This document shows positions 26,981-32,422 of a stretch of 64,000 nucleotides of DNA, piece after piece; position 1 is the stretch's first letter, and each line of letters starts with the position of its first letter. This DNA comes from Planotetraspora sp. A-T 1434 (GTDB lineage: Bacteria; Actinomycetota; Actinomycetes; Streptosporangiales; Streptosporangiaceae): positions 372,001 through 436,000 of the forward strand of contig NZ_JAOEGB010000001.1 of the NCBI RefSeq assembly GCF_025420585.1. Reading direction: 5' to 3'. Below the pieces are notes generated by a model. The model was not told where the DNA came from and made no database searches. It saw only the letters and a program-made list of their open reading frames with translations. A program made the position numbers and the translations under genes.

Positions 26981-28453
26981 TCAGCGCAGGCCGAGGCGAC
27001 GGCGCAGGTCGCGGGTCGTCACCAGGACGTGCTCAACCTCGGCCCGAGTGGGCCACGGGGCCGTGCCCGGCCTGAGCAGGGTCGCCCGGACCGAGCTGAG
27101 ATGCTGCACGGCGGCCGTGTGCAGACCGCTCGTCTCGGTCAGCCAGGCGATCGGGTCGCCCGGCTCCGGCATGCCGCGGGTGAGCAGGTCCCAGGTGCCG
27201 AGGATCTCCATCAGGTCCGCCGGGTCGGCCACCGCGTCGCCTCGGCGGCGGCCGGTCGCCACGGCGAGTTCGGCCCGCGCGGCCAGGTCCGGCTCCGCCG
27301 GGTGATCCCAGCGGGGAGGCGGCCAGCCGGGGTCGGCCCAGGAGGAGTCGGCCCAGGAGGAGTGGGCCCCGGAGGAGTGTGCGCCATCGAGCAGCCACTG
27401 CTCCGCCTCAGCGTCCCTCCCGGTGACCGACAGCAGCGTGTGCAGCTCGGCCTGGGCCCGCTGGTGCCCCTTCTCGGCCGCCTGCCGCAACCAGTGCTGC
27501 CCGCCCCTGAGGTCGTTGTGCTCGGCGATCAGGAGAAGGCCGAAGTTGTAGGCAGACTCCGGATCTCCACCGGCGGCCGCCCGGCCGAACCAGATCCCGG
27601 CCGCCGGGCGGTCGTCGAGCTCGACGCACACGAAGCCGGCCATCCGCTGGCCGTCCACGCGGCCCGCGTGCGCGGCCCGCTCGAACCAGGACCGTGCCGT
27701 ACGGAGATCTCTCCTGGCGAGGGCCAGGCCGCCGAGTTGGAAGGCGGCGCGGGGATGGTCGTGCCGCGCGGCGAGCTGGTAGGCCGCCTCCGCGCCCTCA
27801 GGATCGAGGGTCGCGTGAAGGAGCAGACCCAGGTAGTACCCCGCTTCGGCGTGCCCGGCCCGCGCCGCGTACTCCCACCAGTGGCGGGCCTCGCCCTCGT
27901 CTCCGGCCGCGTAGCCCAGGAAGCCCAGGTCATGCGCGCTGTCCCGGTCGCCGTCGAGAGCGGCCGCGCGGTGCCAGTCGCGCGCGCTCAGGATGTCTCC
28001 CAGGTCCTCGCAGAGCAGGGCCAGGCGGCGGGCCGCGAGGCGTGAGCCGTCCGAGGCGGCCCGCTCGAACCAGCGGCGAGCGGCCTGCACGTCGCCCCTG
28101 CGCTCCAGAAGGAGCGTGGCCAGGTTGACCGCGGCCTCCGCGTCGCCGGTCCCGGCCGCCAGCTCGTACCAGCTCGTGGCCTCCTCCAGCGTGCCGTGCC
28201 TCTGGTGCCAGAGCCCCAGGTTGAAGGCGCTGTCGACGTTGCCGGCCTGCGCGGCCCGCTCCCACCACTGGCGGGCGGCCGCCCGCTCGCCCCGCTCGGC
28301 GCACAGCCGGCCGAGGAGGTGGGCGGCCTCGGGGTCGCCCTCCTGGGCCGCGGCGAGCAGCCTGCTCTCGAAAGGGTCCTCGGGTTCCGGGCCGCGCGGG
28401 ACCGGAACGTCAGGCCAGGCGACCGTCGTCTCCGTGGCTCCCAGGAAAGTCAT
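26981..28453 (-). CDS. SEL1/TPR-repeat protein
   Basis: A 490-residue protein. Residues about 28-355 are roughly nine 36-residue SEL1-like repeats of the form A-xx-G-xx-xA-xxxLGxLxxxRGDxxxARxWxERAA. They form an alpha-solenoid used for protein-protein contacts. A Ser/Trp/Ala low-complexity stretch (about 360-375, repeated SSWAD-type units) follows. The C-terminal 100 residues (MEILGTWDLLTRGMPEPG onward) form a separate domain that I do not recognise. No signal peptide is present, so it is probably cytoplasmic. Related long TPR proteins are common in actinomycetes, mostly without known function. Confidence 0.8.
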   Translation of the reverse strand: MTFLGATETTVAWPDVPVPRGPEPEDPFESRLLAAAQEGDPEAAHLLGRLCAERGERAAARQWWERAAQAGNVDSAFNLGLWHQRHGTLEEATSWYELAAGTGDAEAAVNLATLLLERRGDVQAARRWFERAASDGSRLAARRLALLCEDLGDILSARDWHRAAALDGDRDSAHDLGFLGYAAGDEGEARHWWEYAARAGHAEAGYYLGLLLHATLDPEGAEAAYQLAARHDHPRAAFQLGGLALARRDLRTARSWFERAAHAGRVDGQRMAGFVCVELDDRPAAGIWFGRAAAGGDPESAYNFGLLLIAEHNDLRGGQHWLRQAAEKGHQRAQAELHTLLSVTGRDAEAEQWLLDGAHSSGAHSSWADSSWADPGWPPPRWDHPAEPDLAARAELAVATGRRRGDAVADPADLMEILGTWDLLTRGMPEPGDPIAWLTETSGLHTAAVQHLSSVRATLLRPGTAPWPTRAEVEHVLVTTRDLRRRLGLR

Positions 28454-28510: not shown

Positions 28511-29647
28511 TCATCCGAACCGGATGAAGCCGACGTACATCCCCATCCCGCACGCGTAGCTGAGCTGTCCCGCCCTATGTGGCGGCAGCCGTACCGTCTC
28601 CTCGCCAGTGTCGGGGAGCGCGACGTCGCGGTCGTCAATGGCCACGGTCCGCGTGCAGCCTCGGGCGCCGTCTGTACGGAACACGATTTCGGTCGTCCGG
28701 TCCGCCGCGGCGGTGACGATGCCGGGCCGGAAGCCGTAGTCGGTCGCCCAGATGGTGATCCGCTGAACGCCGTCGTCCCCCTGCCTCGCACGCGTGCCGT
28801 CCGTGCTCTGCCTCACCCGCATGCCCTGGCGCGCCGCTTGCGGGTCGTTCGCGGTGCCGGTCGACGACCCGGAGGCCGTGGCCGGCGACCCGCTGAAGGG
28901 GGACTGGCCGGGGAGCCACCCGCCCAGCCGGAGGCCCGACCCGATCGTGAGGACACCCGCCACGACGGCCGCGACTCCGGCGATCACCGCCAGCCTGGTC
29001 GAGGCGAGCCCGCGCAGCAACAGCCCCAGCGCCGCGAACGCGGGAGCCGTACCGATGGCGAATCCCCCGAGAACGGCCGCGCCCCCGATCACGCTTCCGG
29101 TGGAAACCGCCACGATCTCCAGGCTGATCGTCACGCCGCACGGCACCAGGATGGTGGCGGCACCCAGGGCCAGGCCCCGCGCGACGCCGGGAGCCCGCGT
29201 TCTGATGACCGTTTCGGCGGAGTGGGCCGAGCAACTTGCCCCGCTGTGTGACCCGCCCCTCCTGAGCAGTCGCACAGCCAGGACGACCACGGCGATTCCC
29301 GCCGCGACAAGGAGCGCCGCCCTCGCCCTCGGGCTCACCTGTACGGCGGAGCCGAGCATGCCGAGCAACGCCCCGGCGGCGATGTGGGAGAACAGCCTCC
29401 CCGTCAAAAAGGCCCCCACCGTGGCCAGGTCGCCGCGTCCTCCCGCGTCCGGCTCGCCGTGTTGGCAACAGCTCCCGCCACCCGGCTTCCCTGGACCCGA
29501 CGGGTCGGAGCGGCATCGGTGAGACCGCCCGCTGGCGGGGCGCCGGACGAGGCCGACGAGTAAGCCGCCCTGGACCGCCGTACATGACGCTGTGCCGGCG
29601 GCCAGGCCGGCCGTGAAGCCACCGGCGAAAAGAGCGGCGGCGTTCAC
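28511..29647 (-). CDS. TauE/SafE (UreH-like) membrane protein fused to a cupredoxin-like domain
   Basis: A 378-residue protein with six to seven transmembrane segments in the first 255 residues. The segment FTAGLAAGTASCTAVQGGLLVGL and the later LGAATILVPCGVTISLEI are typical of the sulfite exporter TauE/SafE or UreH-like (DsbD-type) family, with a membrane Cys in each. A His/Cys-bearing loop (GGGSCCQHGEPDAGG) lies between helices 1 and 2. The C-terminal 90 residues resemble EfeO-type cupredoxin domains, ending SYACGMGMYVGFI, with a partner Cys in ARGCTRTV. Metal, probably copper, handling is suggested. It starts two bases after the stop of the small Cys-rich gene, so the two form an operon. 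Confidence 0.78.
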   Translation of the reverse strand: MNAAALFAGGFTAGLAAGTASCTAVQGGLLVGLVRRPASGRSHRCRSDPSGPGKPGGGSCCQHGEPDAGGRGDLATVGAFLTGRLFSHIAAGALLGMLGSAVQVSPRARAALLVAAGIAVVVLAVRLLRRGGSHSGASCSAHSAETVIRTRAPGVARGLALGAATILVPCGVTISLEIVAVSTGSVIGGAAVLGGFAIGTAPAFAALGLLLRGLASTRLAVIAGVAAVVAGVLTIGSGLRLGGWLPGQSPFSGSPATASGSSTGTANDPQAARQGMRVRQSTDGTRARQGDDGVQRITIWATDYGFRPGIVTAAADRTTEIVFRTDGARGCTRTVAIDDRDVALPDTGEETVRLPPHRAGQLSYACGMGMYVGFIRFG

Positions 29648-29649
29648 GG

Positions 29650-29850
29650 TCAGCGGACGAGGGCCAGGTCGTCCAGAGCGCCGGTCTTCGCGGCCTCCAC
29701 GATCGAGCCGAACTGGTCCAGGCTCATCTCGACCTTCTGCCCGAAGTCGTCGGTGATGACGACCTGGCGCTCAACCGGAGCCGTCAGATTCACGAAAAGC
29801 TCGGGACACCCGCAGTTGCAACTGCCACAGAAACGCGCGATCGACTTCAC
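29650..29850 (-). CDS. Small Cys-rich putative metal-binding protein
   Basis: A 66-residue protein beginning MKSIARFCGSCNCGCPELFV. Four cysteines in the order C-x2-C-x-C-x-C near the N-terminus could chelate a metal ion or iron-sulfur cluster. The remainder (VVITDDFGQKVEMSLDQF then EAAKTGAL) looks like a small alpha/beta extension. I do not recognise an established family or function. The gene is two bases upstream of the TauE/SafE-cupredoxin gene on the same strand, so translational coupling and a shared metal-related role are likely. Another possibility is a precursor peptide, but no maturase is adjacent. Confidence 0.72.
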   Translation of the reverse strand: MKSIARFCGSCNCGCPELFVNLTAPVERQVVITDDFGQKVEMSLDQFGSIVEAAKTGALDDLALVR

Positions 29851-29942
29851 GCCGTCCTCCTCGCCTCGGGACTTTCCCCCCGCAACTTAACGTGGCGCCC
29901 CGAAAGCGACCAGTCACACTTCGGTCACCCGAGCCGCTCGTT

Positions 29943-30389
29943 ATGGAGCCGGACAAAGACAAACGCCGAAAGAGTGAGATCGTCTCTACTCTTGCCATGC
30001 TGCGCGGAGTGACATTCGCCGTCGGCCATGTCACCGGCTACCGGCATACCGCGGACCGCGAGCGCGCCCGGCAGACGGTCATGGCGGCGCTACTTCCCTG
30101 GCTGGCGAAGGCCGGGGTCGAGAGCATCCTTATCGAGTTGCGGGACACCAAGTCGCTGCAGGTGGCGGACACGAGAACCGTCGCGGCGTTGCGTACGGCG
30201 GATCTCCTTCCTTCGGAGACGTCGGTCCGTCAGGGACGTCCATCGGAAGAGCCGCTCCTGTGGATCGCAGACGCGTGCGCGGCCGCATGGCGCCGTGCGA
30301 TGGCTGAGGGCAAGGGCAACTGGGCGCAGTGGTATGAACCTCACACGGCCTTGCTGGAAGTTCCATTTCCGGACCGTCGGGGCCGCTGA
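29943..30389 (+). CDS. Hypothetical protein, possibly the C-terminal part of a DUF3800-like protein
   Basis: About 148 residues from ATG 29943 (an upstream GTG at 29892 adds 17). The sequence has ARQTVMAALLPWLAKAGVESILIELRDTKSLQVADTR and EEPLLWIADACAAAWRRA. The spacing E-R-D...D-x-R...EPLLWIADA recalls the second half of RNase H-like DUF3800 proteins of actinomycetes. The N-terminal Y-x-DE(S) active-site strand of that family is not present, so this may be a truncated copy or a short relative. It is divergent from the Cys-rich gene. Function is unknown. Confidence 0.5.
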   Translation: MEPDKDKRRKSEIVSTLAMLRGVTFAVGHVTGYRHTADRERARQTVMAALLPWLAKAGVESILIELRDTKSLQVADTRTVAALRTADLLPSETSVRQGRPSEEPLLWIADACAAAWRRAMAEGKGNWAQWYEPHTALLEVPFPDRRGR

Positions 30390-30533: not shown

Positions 30534-31196
30534 CTACAGCCAGCCGGGTTTGACGAGGCCGGACTCGTAGGCGATGACGACGAGCTGGGCGCGGTCACGG
30601 GCGTGGAGCTTCGTCATCGTCCGGCTGACGTGGGTCTTGGCCGTCGCGGGTGACATGAAGAGCGTGGCGGCGACCTCGTCGTTGGTCATGCCGGTGCCGA
30701 CGAGGGCGAGCACCTCGCGCTCCCGCTCGGTGAGCTGGCCGAGGTTCCGCGCGATGCCTGGCTCCTTGGCCCGCGAGGCGTACTCCGCGATGAGCCTGCG
30801 GGTGACGCTGGGCGACAGCAGGGCGTCGCCGCAGGCCACGACCCGGACGGCCTGGATCAGCTCGGCCGGCTCGGTGTCCTTGACGAGAAAGCCGCTGGCC
30901 CCGCCGCGAAGGGCCTCGAAGACGTACTCGTCCAGCTCGAACGTGGTCAGCATGATGATCCTCGTGCTGTCCAGCGCGGGATCCTCTCCGATGTGACGGG
31001 TGGCGGTCAGGCCGTCCATGCCCGGCATGCGGATGTCCATCAGCACCACGTCCGGGTGCAGCTCTCTGGTCAGTTGAATGGCCTGCGCGCCGTCGGACGC
31101 CTCGCCGACCACGGTCATGCCGTCCTGGGCGTCGAGCAGGGCCCGGAACCCGGCCCGCACGAGAGCCTGGTCGTCGGCCAGCACAACGTTGATCAC
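30534..31196 (-). CDS. NarL/LuxR-type response regulator
   Basis: A 220-residue response regulator. The receiver domain has DD at residues 8-9, phospho-acceptor Asp54 in VVLMDIRMPGMDG, Thr in MLTTFELDEYV and Lys in FLVKDTEP. The C-terminal LuxR HTH (about 150-215) is LTEREREVLALVGTGMTNDEV with AKTHVSR. It starts at GTG 31196, overlapping the kinase stop by four bases (GTGA), so kinase and regulator are translationally coupled. Target genes are unknown; the divergent gamma-glutamyltransferase gene beyond the kinase is one possibility. Confidence 0.95.
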   Translation of the reverse strand: MINVVLADDQALVRAGFRALLDAQDGMTVVGEASDGAQAIQLTRELHPDVVLMDIRMPGMDGLTATRHIGEDPALDSTRIIMLTTFELDEYVFEALRGGASGFLVKDTEPAELIQAVRVVACGDALLSPSVTRRLIAEYASRAKEPGIARNLGQLTEREREVLALVGTGMTNDEVAATLFMSPATAKTHVSRTMTKLHARDRAQLVVIAYESGLVKPGWL

Positions 31197-32422
31197 GTGG
31201 GCTCCTCGGGTTCGGTACGGCTCTCGCTCTGGAGCTCTGGTTCTTCGGCCCGTTGAGGATCGGCACCGCCAGGATCGGAGGCGGGGTCCAAGGCCGGGAG
31301 GGGGAGGGTGGCTGCCACACGGAAGCCGCCGCCCGGACGTGGGGCTGCGGAAAGCGATCCACCGAGGGCCGCCGCCCGCTCGCGCATGCCCGGTATGCCG
31401 TTGCCGCCGCCCAGGCCGTGTACGGCGGGCGCGGCCCCAGCCCCGTCGTCTTCCACGACGATGCCCATCTCGGCCGGACCGTACGAGATCCGCACGATGA
31501 CGCTCGAACCCGGGGCGTGCCGCGACACGTTCGTCAGCGACTCCTGCACGATCCGGTAGCCCGCCCGGTCGGTCCCGGCCGGGAGCGGCCTCACCTGGCC
31601 GCTGATCTCCAGCCGCACGGGCAGGCCGCTCCGCTCGACCAGCTCGTCGAGCCGGTCCATCCCGGCGGTGGGGGAGCGCGGGGCGCCCTCTCTCAGCAGG
31701 CTGAGCACGCTCCGCATCTCGGCCAGCACGTCCTTGGACGCGCCCTTGATGGTGGTGAGAGCGGTGCGGGCCTGTTCCGGGTGCGTGTCGAGCAGGTGCA
31801 GCGCGGTCGACGCCTGGACGTGGATCAGCGAGATGTTGTGGGCGAGCACGTCGTGCAGCTCCTGTGCCATGGTCAGCCGTTCCTCGCTGGCCTGCCGCCT
31901 GGCCTCCTCGTCCTCCACCCGTTTCCGCTCCGCGAGGCGCTCGCGCCTGGCCCGGTAGAACTCGGCGATGGTCAGCGTGAGCAGCAGGAACGCCGCGACC
32001 GCGGTGTGGTGGAACCAGCCCTGAGGGTTGGGGATGAGCCACGTCGAATACGCGATCATGAACAGGAAGAACGCGGCCGTCGCCCACCACGCCGCGCGGC
32101 GGCGCCCGGACACGACGGCGGAGAAGATCATTATCGCGGGGCCGGCGAAAACGGGCCCGTAGGAGAAGTCGAGCAGGAGATAGGCGCAGGTCGCAGCCAG
32201 GGTGGCCACCAAGCCGGCCATTGGGTAACGCCGTCGCAGGGCGATGGCGGCGGGTCCGACCAGCAGCAGCGCGTATCCCCGCCAGTCGAGCGGCACCCGG
32301 CCCAGGTCGGCGTTCCTGGTCTCAACGTACTGGGCGCCCATCGTCCCGAAGACCTGGAACAGCCCGATGGCGACGGGCATAACGGGATTTATCCAATGGA
32401 ACCACTCAGAACGGGAACGCAC
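31193..32422 (-). CDS. NarX/DesK-type sensor histidine kinase
   Basis: A 409-residue kinase. Five or so membrane helices occupy residues 15-155 with little extracellular sequence. A coiled-coil linker follows, then a HisKA_3 dimerisation domain with His190 in MAQELHDVLAHNISLIHV. The HATPase domain has ESLTNVSRHAP (N box) and GNGIPGMRERAAALGG (G box). A Pro/Glu-rich tail ends the protein. The lack of a sensor loop suggests detection of a membrane or envelope signal. The GTG at 32422 has no well-placed ribosome site; an internal start such as ATG 32380 is possible. Confidence 0.9.
   Translation of the reverse strand: MRSRSEWFHWINPVMPVAIGLFQVFGTMGAQYVETRNADLGRVPLDWRGYALLLVGPAAIALRRRYPMAGLVATLAATCAYLLLDFSYGPVFAGPAIMIFSAVVSGRRRAAWWATAAFFLFMIAYSTWLIPNPQGWFHHTAVAAFLLLTLTIAEFYRARRERLAERKRVEDEEARRQASEERLTMAQELHDVLAHNISLIHVQASTALHLLDTHPEQARTALTTIKGASKDVLAEMRSVLSLLREGAPRSPTAGMDRLDELVERSGLPVRLEISGQVRPLPAGTDRAGYRIVQESLTNVSRHAPGSSVIVRISYGPAEMGIVVEDDGAGAAPAVHGLGGGNGIPGMRERAAALGGSLSAAPRPGGGFRVAATLPLPALDPASDPGGADPQRAEEPELQSESRTEPEEPT

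Follow-up and report, generated by a model that had tools for sequence, protein, structure and literature searches.

Both the development of actinomycetes and their production of antibiotics depend on copper. Among the described proteins that handle Cu(I), CupA of Streptococcus pneumoniae is one of the nearest to the locus considered here. According to the accessible part of its published description (PMC5646241), CupA is a membrane-anchored chaperone that supplies CopA from inside the cell; it binds two Cu(I), held by C74/C111 and by C74/M113/M115, and reduces Cu(II) via its two cysteines. The nearest printed idea that we found concerns the DsbD family: in Nitrososphaera viennensis, DsbD-family proteins are up under copper limitation, and the authors, in the portion of their report that is available, suggest that these proteins bind Cu(I) (PMC7785015).

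The locus in question lies in a stretch of 64,000 nucleotides (the window) from Planotetraspora sp. A-T 1434, whose genome assembly is 7.78 Mb in 136 contigs and 98% complete. An earlier, sequence-only reading of the window had pointed to two adjacent open reading frames with a gap of two bases, for a small Cys-rich protein and a membrane protein, and had proposed that they serve as a relay for a metal, probably copper. Both frames were found as described, on the minus strand and two bases apart (Table 1). We propose, at about even confidence, that they form a Cu(I)-handling cassette, in which a cytosolic carrier docks on a membrane conduit that has a CupA-like receiver outside. The identity of the metal, the placement of the proteins, the transfer of copper between them and its outward direction are what we infer from the evidence set out below. 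Each gene is present once in the genome: a search gave a single match for the small protein, and a DsbD_2 search returned the window's membrane protein and one sub-threshold second place.

Table 1. Features of the cassette and its upstream region, with positions in the window
Feature	Position	Strand	Remarks
Small Cys-rich protein gene	29650..29850	-	66 aa, GTG start
Membrane protein gene	28511..29647	-	378 aa, GTG start; DsbD_2 + CupA-like cupredoxin
C8-x2-C11-x-C13-x-C15 codons, small gene	29806..29829	-	cluster kept in 104/106 unique family rows
Shine-Dalgarno-like GAGGAGGA ahead of small gene	29855..29862	-	read from sequence
Cys22 codon, membrane gene	29582..29584	-	first predicted transmembrane helix region, invariant
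Cys170 codon, motif PCG, membrane gene	29138..29140	-	fourth predicted transmembrane helix region, invariant
Cupredoxin domain, residues 292-378	28511..28774	-	putative Cu(I) ligands C331, C366, M368, M370
Promoter-like element TGTGACTGGTCG-15-GTTAAGTT	29884..29918	-	family consensus TGTNACTGGYCG-15-GTTACGTT

Genes for a histidine kinase (HisKA_3) and a LuxR-type response regulator are found upstream of the cassette (30534-32422, minus strand), and in 32 of the 42 loci from Streptosporangiaceae their clusters lie close to the small gene; these proteins could be regulators of the cassette, or they could be syntenic and nothing more. A divergent ORF of 165 aa with no Pfam match (29892-30389, plus strand) has the intergenic region with the promoter-like element in common with the cassette. 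After the cassette comes a gene for a Sel1-repeat protein (26981-28453, minus strand), whose cluster recurs in 34 of the 42 family loci.

The C-x2-C-x-C-x-C motif ascribed to the small protein reads C8-GS-C11-N-C13-G-C15. A scan of contigs from bacterial and archaeal species confirmed 297 relatives, from which 80 loci were kept, every one titled as Actinobacteria; the positions of the small genes in these loci were taken from tblastn matches, as the gene caller missed 18 of the 80. Conservation of the cysteines had been chosen beforehand as a test of the proposal, and CxxC-x(1-3)-CxC is intact in 104 of the 106 unique protein rows gathered from all loci. The two exceptions are Microbispora bryophytorum (L028/L108), which has lost C8 and C11, and Nonomuraea sp. 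MG754425 (L109), which has lost C11, in both cases beside an intact membrane gene. Conservation spans the whole length of the protein (TDDFGQ, MS, Q, A, G). AlphaFold2, given 41 sequences, predicts a b-b-b-b-alpha fold with a pLDDT of 90, in which the strands cover residues 2-6, 17-20, 30-33 and 39-42, the helix covers residues 44-56 and the Cys cluster sits in the first loop.

No Pfam match was obtained for the small protein up to an E-value of 1, HMA (PF00403) and DUF2946 included, and no metallothionein or other known family of small metal-binding proteins came over the cut-off in Pfam or NCBIfam. Over 41 members of the family all NCBIfam matches were far below cut-off, the weak similarities being to iron-sulfur subunits (15.8 of 204 bits), and a family profile found nothing among PDB sequences up to an E-value of 10. 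Thus the small proteins are a conserved actinobacterial family without a Pfam or NCBIfam model. PHROGs likewise gave no match. A phage origin was considered and dropped, as a search of a phage collection found nothing. A Foldseek search with the predicted model returned nothing below an E-value of 0.001; the best aligner matches of the fold were PC4 and Pur-alpha (Z 5.0-5.4), a similarity that may reflect a common arrangement only. The strand-helix half of the protein also aligns in register with DUF397 (PF04149) proteins of the same genome (L178-L182), for which hhalign gave a colinear score of 16.3-16.4, column shuffles (sets of 30 and 60) reaching 13.0 at the highest, at a probability of 2-4% with shallow profiles; no further DUF397 members that would deepen the profile were found among the loci at hand. 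Since neither a signal peptide nor a transmembrane helix is evident in its sequence, the small protein is presumably cytosolic. A candidate relative, by its description, may be STSU_32197 of S. tsukubaensis, a hypothetical protein of a copper operon under the control of SigG1 in the part of the report available (PMC7730460).

The membrane domain had been taken for TauE, an assignment that gives way to DsbD_2 (PF13386), which Pfam places at residues 76-232 with 62.1 bits over a curated cut-off of 24.9 and which scores 85-87 bits in relatives of the protein; 'sulfite exporter TauE/SafE' is the RefSeq product name of relatives only. The cysteines reported for two of the helices are indeed there, as Cys22 and Cys170 fall within predicted helices, and the ACGMGMY ending is present at the C-terminus. 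An alignment of 43 rows, made up of the window protein with its duplicate L001 and 41 further sequences, has C22, C170, C331, C366, M368 and M370 identical in every row, and all six are also kept in five of five relatives outside the family. Two helices therefore each contain a single invariant cysteine (C22, C170), as do the thiol electron conduits of DsbD/CcdA type. The CCQH loop that had also been singled out is present at residues 60-63, but it is not conserved, the same residues being found in 2 of the 43 rows, namely the window protein and L001, and its candidacy as a metal site was dropped.

The mean number of Lys and Arg residues is 3.3, 7.7 and 3.2 in loops 1, 3 and 5, compared with 1.7 in loop 2 and 0 in loop 4. 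By the positive-inside rule, the positive charges in the odd-numbered loops suggest that both termini, and with them the cupredoxin, would be extracytoplasmic. Loop 3, which would then be cytosolic, contains one or more cysteines in 42 of the 43 rows, and the five outside relatives that neighbour an HMA protein have Leu or Val at position 139; the Cys-rich carrier might dock at this residue. The AF2 model of the membrane protein has an overall pLDDT of 68.5, with 80-94 in the cupredoxin blocks.

The assignment of the C-terminal domain as cupredoxin-like is clear by profile and fold, at a Pfam score just short of the curated cut-off (Cupredoxin_1, PF13473: 25 bits against 27); four outside relatives score 38-52 bits. 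In Foldseek the best match is CupA-Cu(I) (4f2e; E 9.1e-8, target TM 0.83, 27% identity), followed by the CopA metal-binding domain (4f2f), and a profile built from ten cupredoxin segments finds CupA at an E-value of 2.4e-10 and the CopA metal-binding domain at 1.5e-10. In the alignment, CxxC...ACGMNM of CupA lies opposite C331 and C366-G-M368-G-M370, so that C331, C366, M368 and M370 are the counterparts of CupA C74, C111, M113 and M115; by this alignment all four CupA Cu(I) ligands are kept in the membrane protein. Six repeat matches of about 6 bits each to Pizza6, which are designed propellers, were discarded.

How far the two genes belong together depends on where one looks. The 80 small-family loci comprise 42 from Streptosporangiaceae (L068-L109) and 38 counted as others (L110-L147), among the latter L112 (genome G093), which is of the window's family. 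In 35 of the 42 the membrane gene lies on the same strand at a distance of -4 to 64 bases, mostly 2, and this identical order of two genes argues that the pairing exceeds chance. One of the 35, L085 (the same locus as L021), has an internally deleted membrane gene; the seven loci without the gene are five from Planotetraspora together with L089 and L107. Among the other 38 loci, none has the membrane gene downstream of the small gene within the 2-8 kb scanned (less than 1 kb in one). Within 297 genomes of the order, the small protein is found in 55 (G066 by a weak partial match) and the membrane protein in 134, with both in 44, the small protein only in 11, the membrane protein only in 90 and neither in 152 (Fisher p 8.6e-9, a value that ignores the kinship of the genomes); where positions were read, for 42 of the 44 genomes with both, the genes are adjacent in 37 and apart in 5. 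Within 296 genomes of the class, the small protein is found in 45, the membrane protein in at least 22 and both in at least 11, these last two being lower bounds from a single query sequence, and 34 of the 45 genomes with the small protein give no match for the membrane protein. The small protein mostly lacks the membrane gene elsewhere (34 of 45 genomes, 0 of 38 loci), which had been set beforehand as the refuting observation, and thus the two are not an obligate pair. Obligate pairing is refuted, and the cassette belongs to one actinomycete family, the Streptosporangiaceae.

Within that family the history of the cassette can be followed through a promoter-like element, with a consensus derived from the sequences upstream of small genes (Table 1). 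It lies 31-36 bases upstream of most cassette-type small genes and is present in 42 of 42 cassette-type loci with 0-3 mismatches of 20, at a spacing of 15 in 41 and 16 in one. The 64 kb of the window, taken as 510 stretches of 250 bases, hold one site with at most 4 mismatches, at 29918-29884, and at the same threshold the element was not found in L110-L147. It is retained, at up to 4 mismatches, by 20 of 22 loci that have the membrane gene and no intact small gene. Between the element and the membrane gene of L047, L048 and L062 one can still make out a truncated beginning of the small gene, and in G287 a remnant of 25 residues adjoins the membrane gene. The best tree of 42 membrane proteins and four outside relatives implies about 10 losses or gains of the small gene, of which at least 4 fall on supported branches; the tree alone gives no direction, and that of loss is read from the remnants. 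From the element and remnants at membrane-only loci it looks as though the cassette was ancestral in Streptosporangiaceae and the small gene was lost again and again, and Planotetraspora looks like a case of the opposite loss, that of the membrane gene. As the small gene was repeatedly lost or gained while the membrane gene persisted, it is not essential to the latter. A simple pattern scan of 155 upstream regions found no CsoR-type pseudopalindrome, and one G-tract, in L144.

The copper link also shows in the neighbourhoods of relatives. Of the 38 loci L110-L147, 19 have PCuAC, CopA, CopZ, PepSY_TM or DUF1775 genes no more than 8 kb from the small gene, and 17 no more than 4 kb from it, and for the clusters used the corresponding count within 8 kb of the cassette is none in the 42 Streptosporangiaceae loci; these counts come from a home-made gene caller, with cluster names checked by one Pfam-tested representative each. 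The copper genes around the small protein vary in order and strand. Nine Streptomyces genomes that were searched have 1-3 PCuAC matches each, which makes chance proximity unlikely, with the proviso that the loci are related to one another. Streptomyces sp. NBC_01201 encodes the small protein (WP_327436520.1, annotated as 'hypothetical protein') on its plasmid NZ_CP108566, between a Met/His-rich protein and a CopZ-like HMA protein; its neighbours there are PepSY, DUF5134, a sigma factor, a hypothetical protein, CopA and PCuAC. In L030 and L064 it adjoins genes for CsoR and CopA, to which L030 adds a CopZ-like gene.

Several further features of these neighbourhoods were observed. Met/His-rich membrane proteins without a Pfam match (cl121; L144:1133-1837, L123:11311-12129 and relatives) are encoded no further than 8 kb from the small gene in 19 of the 38 loci, often accompanied by an ECF sigma factor (15 of 38), and are possibly a component of Streptomyces copper islands that is not yet described. 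In L170 and relatives (f19) a DUF5134 membrane protein (80.5 bits) follows the small gene directly. FecCD-type ABC transporter genes on the strand of the small gene finish just ahead of it in L066, L067, L144 and L145. An asparagine-synthase-like gene follows in the last two of these loci, joined in L145 by a P450 gene, as in a natural-product cluster. A ZnuA-like cluster occurs in 6 of the 38 loci.

The membrane protein has a metal neighbourhood of its own outside the family. At all five outside loci that were read (L186, L187, L190-L192; further ones exist), a gene for an HMA protein adjoins that for the membrane relative. In L186 and L187, from another family of the class, it comes after the membrane gene, from which a P-type ATPase gene with HMA diverges in L186; in L190-L192, which are linear plasmids of Streptomyces (NZ_CP109047, NZ_CP074103 and NC_023286), it follows at +2 or -4 bases, in regions that hold a P-type ATPase and metal-responsive regulators and, in two of them, CopC and CopY genes. 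No relative of the small protein was found within 8 kb in the three plasmid stretches. The same metal regions also hold two CcdA genes and glutaredoxin- or peroxiredoxin-type genes beside the TauE-cupredoxin/HMA pair. In the part of PMC9195940 available, curing of plasmid pI, which carries L191, hardly altered the copper tolerance of Streptomyces mirabilis, and pI slightly increased that of S. lividans (Table 2 there). With CupA-type ligands kept, copper genes around the small protein and CopZ-like HMA proteins beside the membrane relatives, the earlier choice of copper as the probable metal has gained ground; judged from these comparisons, the copper link is well supported, and stronger than first supposed.

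In the proposed cassette, the small cytosolic protein would bind Cu(I) via CxxCxCxC and serve, much like CopZ, to carry or buffer it. The membrane protein would accept Cu(I) at its cytosolic face, and the ion would move by thiol exchange through the helix cysteines C22 and C170 and be passed to the extracytoplasmic CupA-like cupredoxin (C331, C366, M368, M370), from which it would go to surface cuproproteins or leave the cell. The strongest argument for a relation of carrier and conduit is that HMA and CxxCxCxC partners exchange around one conduit family, an argument from gene context. A broader version is tentative and, in our judgement, rather doubtful: an ATP-independent Cu(I) conduit, fed interchangeably by CxxCxCxC carriers or HMA chaperones, that leads over the DsbD_2 helix cysteines to the CupA-like domain outside. 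Several observations count against this picture. They are the lack of a copper gene within 8 kb at all 42 Streptosporangiaceae loci, the failure to find a CsoR-type box in the upstream regions, the slight effect of pI curing on S. mirabilis, as far as the available text goes (PMC9195940), the repeated loss of the small gene, the small proteins with lost cysteines beside an intact membrane gene, the missing membrane gene in the five Planotetraspora loci, L089 and L107 and its internal deletion in L021/L085, and the position of CupA, which in pneumococcus sits inside, opposite to the placement suggested here, in the partial account (PMC5646241).

It is conceivable, and to be taken seriously although we consider it unlikely, that the small protein is a stand-alone cytosolic buffer or store for Cu(I) that has its promoter in common with the membrane protein and hands no metal to it. 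Its occurrence without the membrane gene in 34 of 45 class genomes, the many gene orders in which it is found around copper genes and the frequent persistence of the membrane gene after decay of the small gene would all be expected of a buffer; the two-base spacing in most of the 35 loci under one common promoter-like element is not easily reconciled with it, nor is the placement of a different type of small metal carrier, HMA, directly beside membrane relatives elsewhere. We regard it as somewhat less probable still that the membrane protein carries electrons and not copper, in the manner of DsbD/CcdA, with C22/C170 sending reducing power to the outside and keeping the cupredoxin cysteines reduced, so that the cupredoxin would reduce Cu(II) or load cuproproteins. 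The DsbD_2 match, together with the invariant cysteines of the two helices, is in line with electron transfer, as are the reduction of Cu(II) by the two cysteines of CupA in the accessible text (PMC5646241) and the CcdA and glutaredoxin- or peroxiredoxin-type genes at the three plasmid loci. However, there is no thioredoxin-like partner adjacent in the window, and the adjoining small proteins (HMA, CxxCxCxC) are by type metal carriers, not thioredoxins.

A role of the small protein as a regulator that responds to metal, be it as a DNA binder of PC4-like fold or as an upstream frame controlling the membrane gene in the way of CruR, appears very improbable. In its favour are the predicted b-b-b-b-alpha arrangement, with PC4 and Pur-alpha single-strand DNA binders as best matches, the position of the gene as first in the operon, and the precedent of CruR, in the excerpt consulted (PMC9426467); the Z scores, though, are within the tool's range for common arrangements, Foldseek has nothing below 0.001, and conservation of the whole protein and stand-alone occurrence in most genomes are unlike an upstream frame. 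We give hardly any credence to a metal other than copper (zinc, iron or an Fe-S cluster) together with a small protein that serves several metals. The FecCD-type ABC genes just upstream in four loci, the ZnuA-like cluster in six of 38 and the weak NCBIfam similarity to iron-sulfur subunits could be cited for it, but those NCBIfam matches are far below cut-off, copper genes are the commonest class found and the ligand set of the cupredoxin is that of CupA.

If the Cu(I)-handling cassette is as proposed, actinomycetes would have a copper route beside CopZ/CopA that is now annotated as 'hypothetical protein' and 'sulfite exporter TauE/SafE'. A conserved family without a model would gain a function, a misleading product name would be corrected, and there would be a simple system in which to ask whether DsbD-type membrane proteins carry metal besides electrons. 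In a partial, open-licence survey of the literature, no account was found of the small family, or of a TauE/DsbD_2-CupA fusion in such a role.

The cassette resembles several known systems in part. As in CruR (DUF2946), the copper-responsive upstream frame of Bordetella, a small protein with a Cys motif stands at the head of a copper-linked operon; unlike CruR, it has no sequence match to that family and no signal peptide, is conserved over its whole length and has free-standing copies. With the CopZ-type HMA chaperones it has in common its small size, solubility, adjacent cysteines and nearby copper genes, whereas it lacks an HMA match and differs in predicted fold and motif; the HMA gene, moreover, is downstream of the membrane gene and the Cys-rich gene upstream. 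The TauE/SafE-HMA pairs in metal-resistance regions of Streptomyces linear plasmids have the same membrane architecture, all six Cys/Met residues and a small carrier encoded directly after it. They differ in that this carrier is an HMA protein, that the loop 3 Cys typical of the window family is absent, and that relatives of the small protein were not found within 8 kb. The 62.1-bit domain match and the single invariant Cys that each of two helices carries recall DsbD_2, CcdA and DsbD, from which the window protein is set apart by its fusion to a CupA-like cupredoxin and by its place beside a gene of small metal-carrier type. To CupA of S. pneumoniae and the cupredoxin metal-binding domain of its CopA (PDB 4f2e, 2mry, 4f2f) the likeness lies in the cupredoxin fold and the ligands Cys and Cys-x-Met-x-Met. 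CupA itself, in the available part of its description, is held by one membrane leader and supplies a P-type ATPase (PMC5646241), whereas the cupredoxin of the window ends a six-helix DsbD_2 protein and would lie outside the cytosol.
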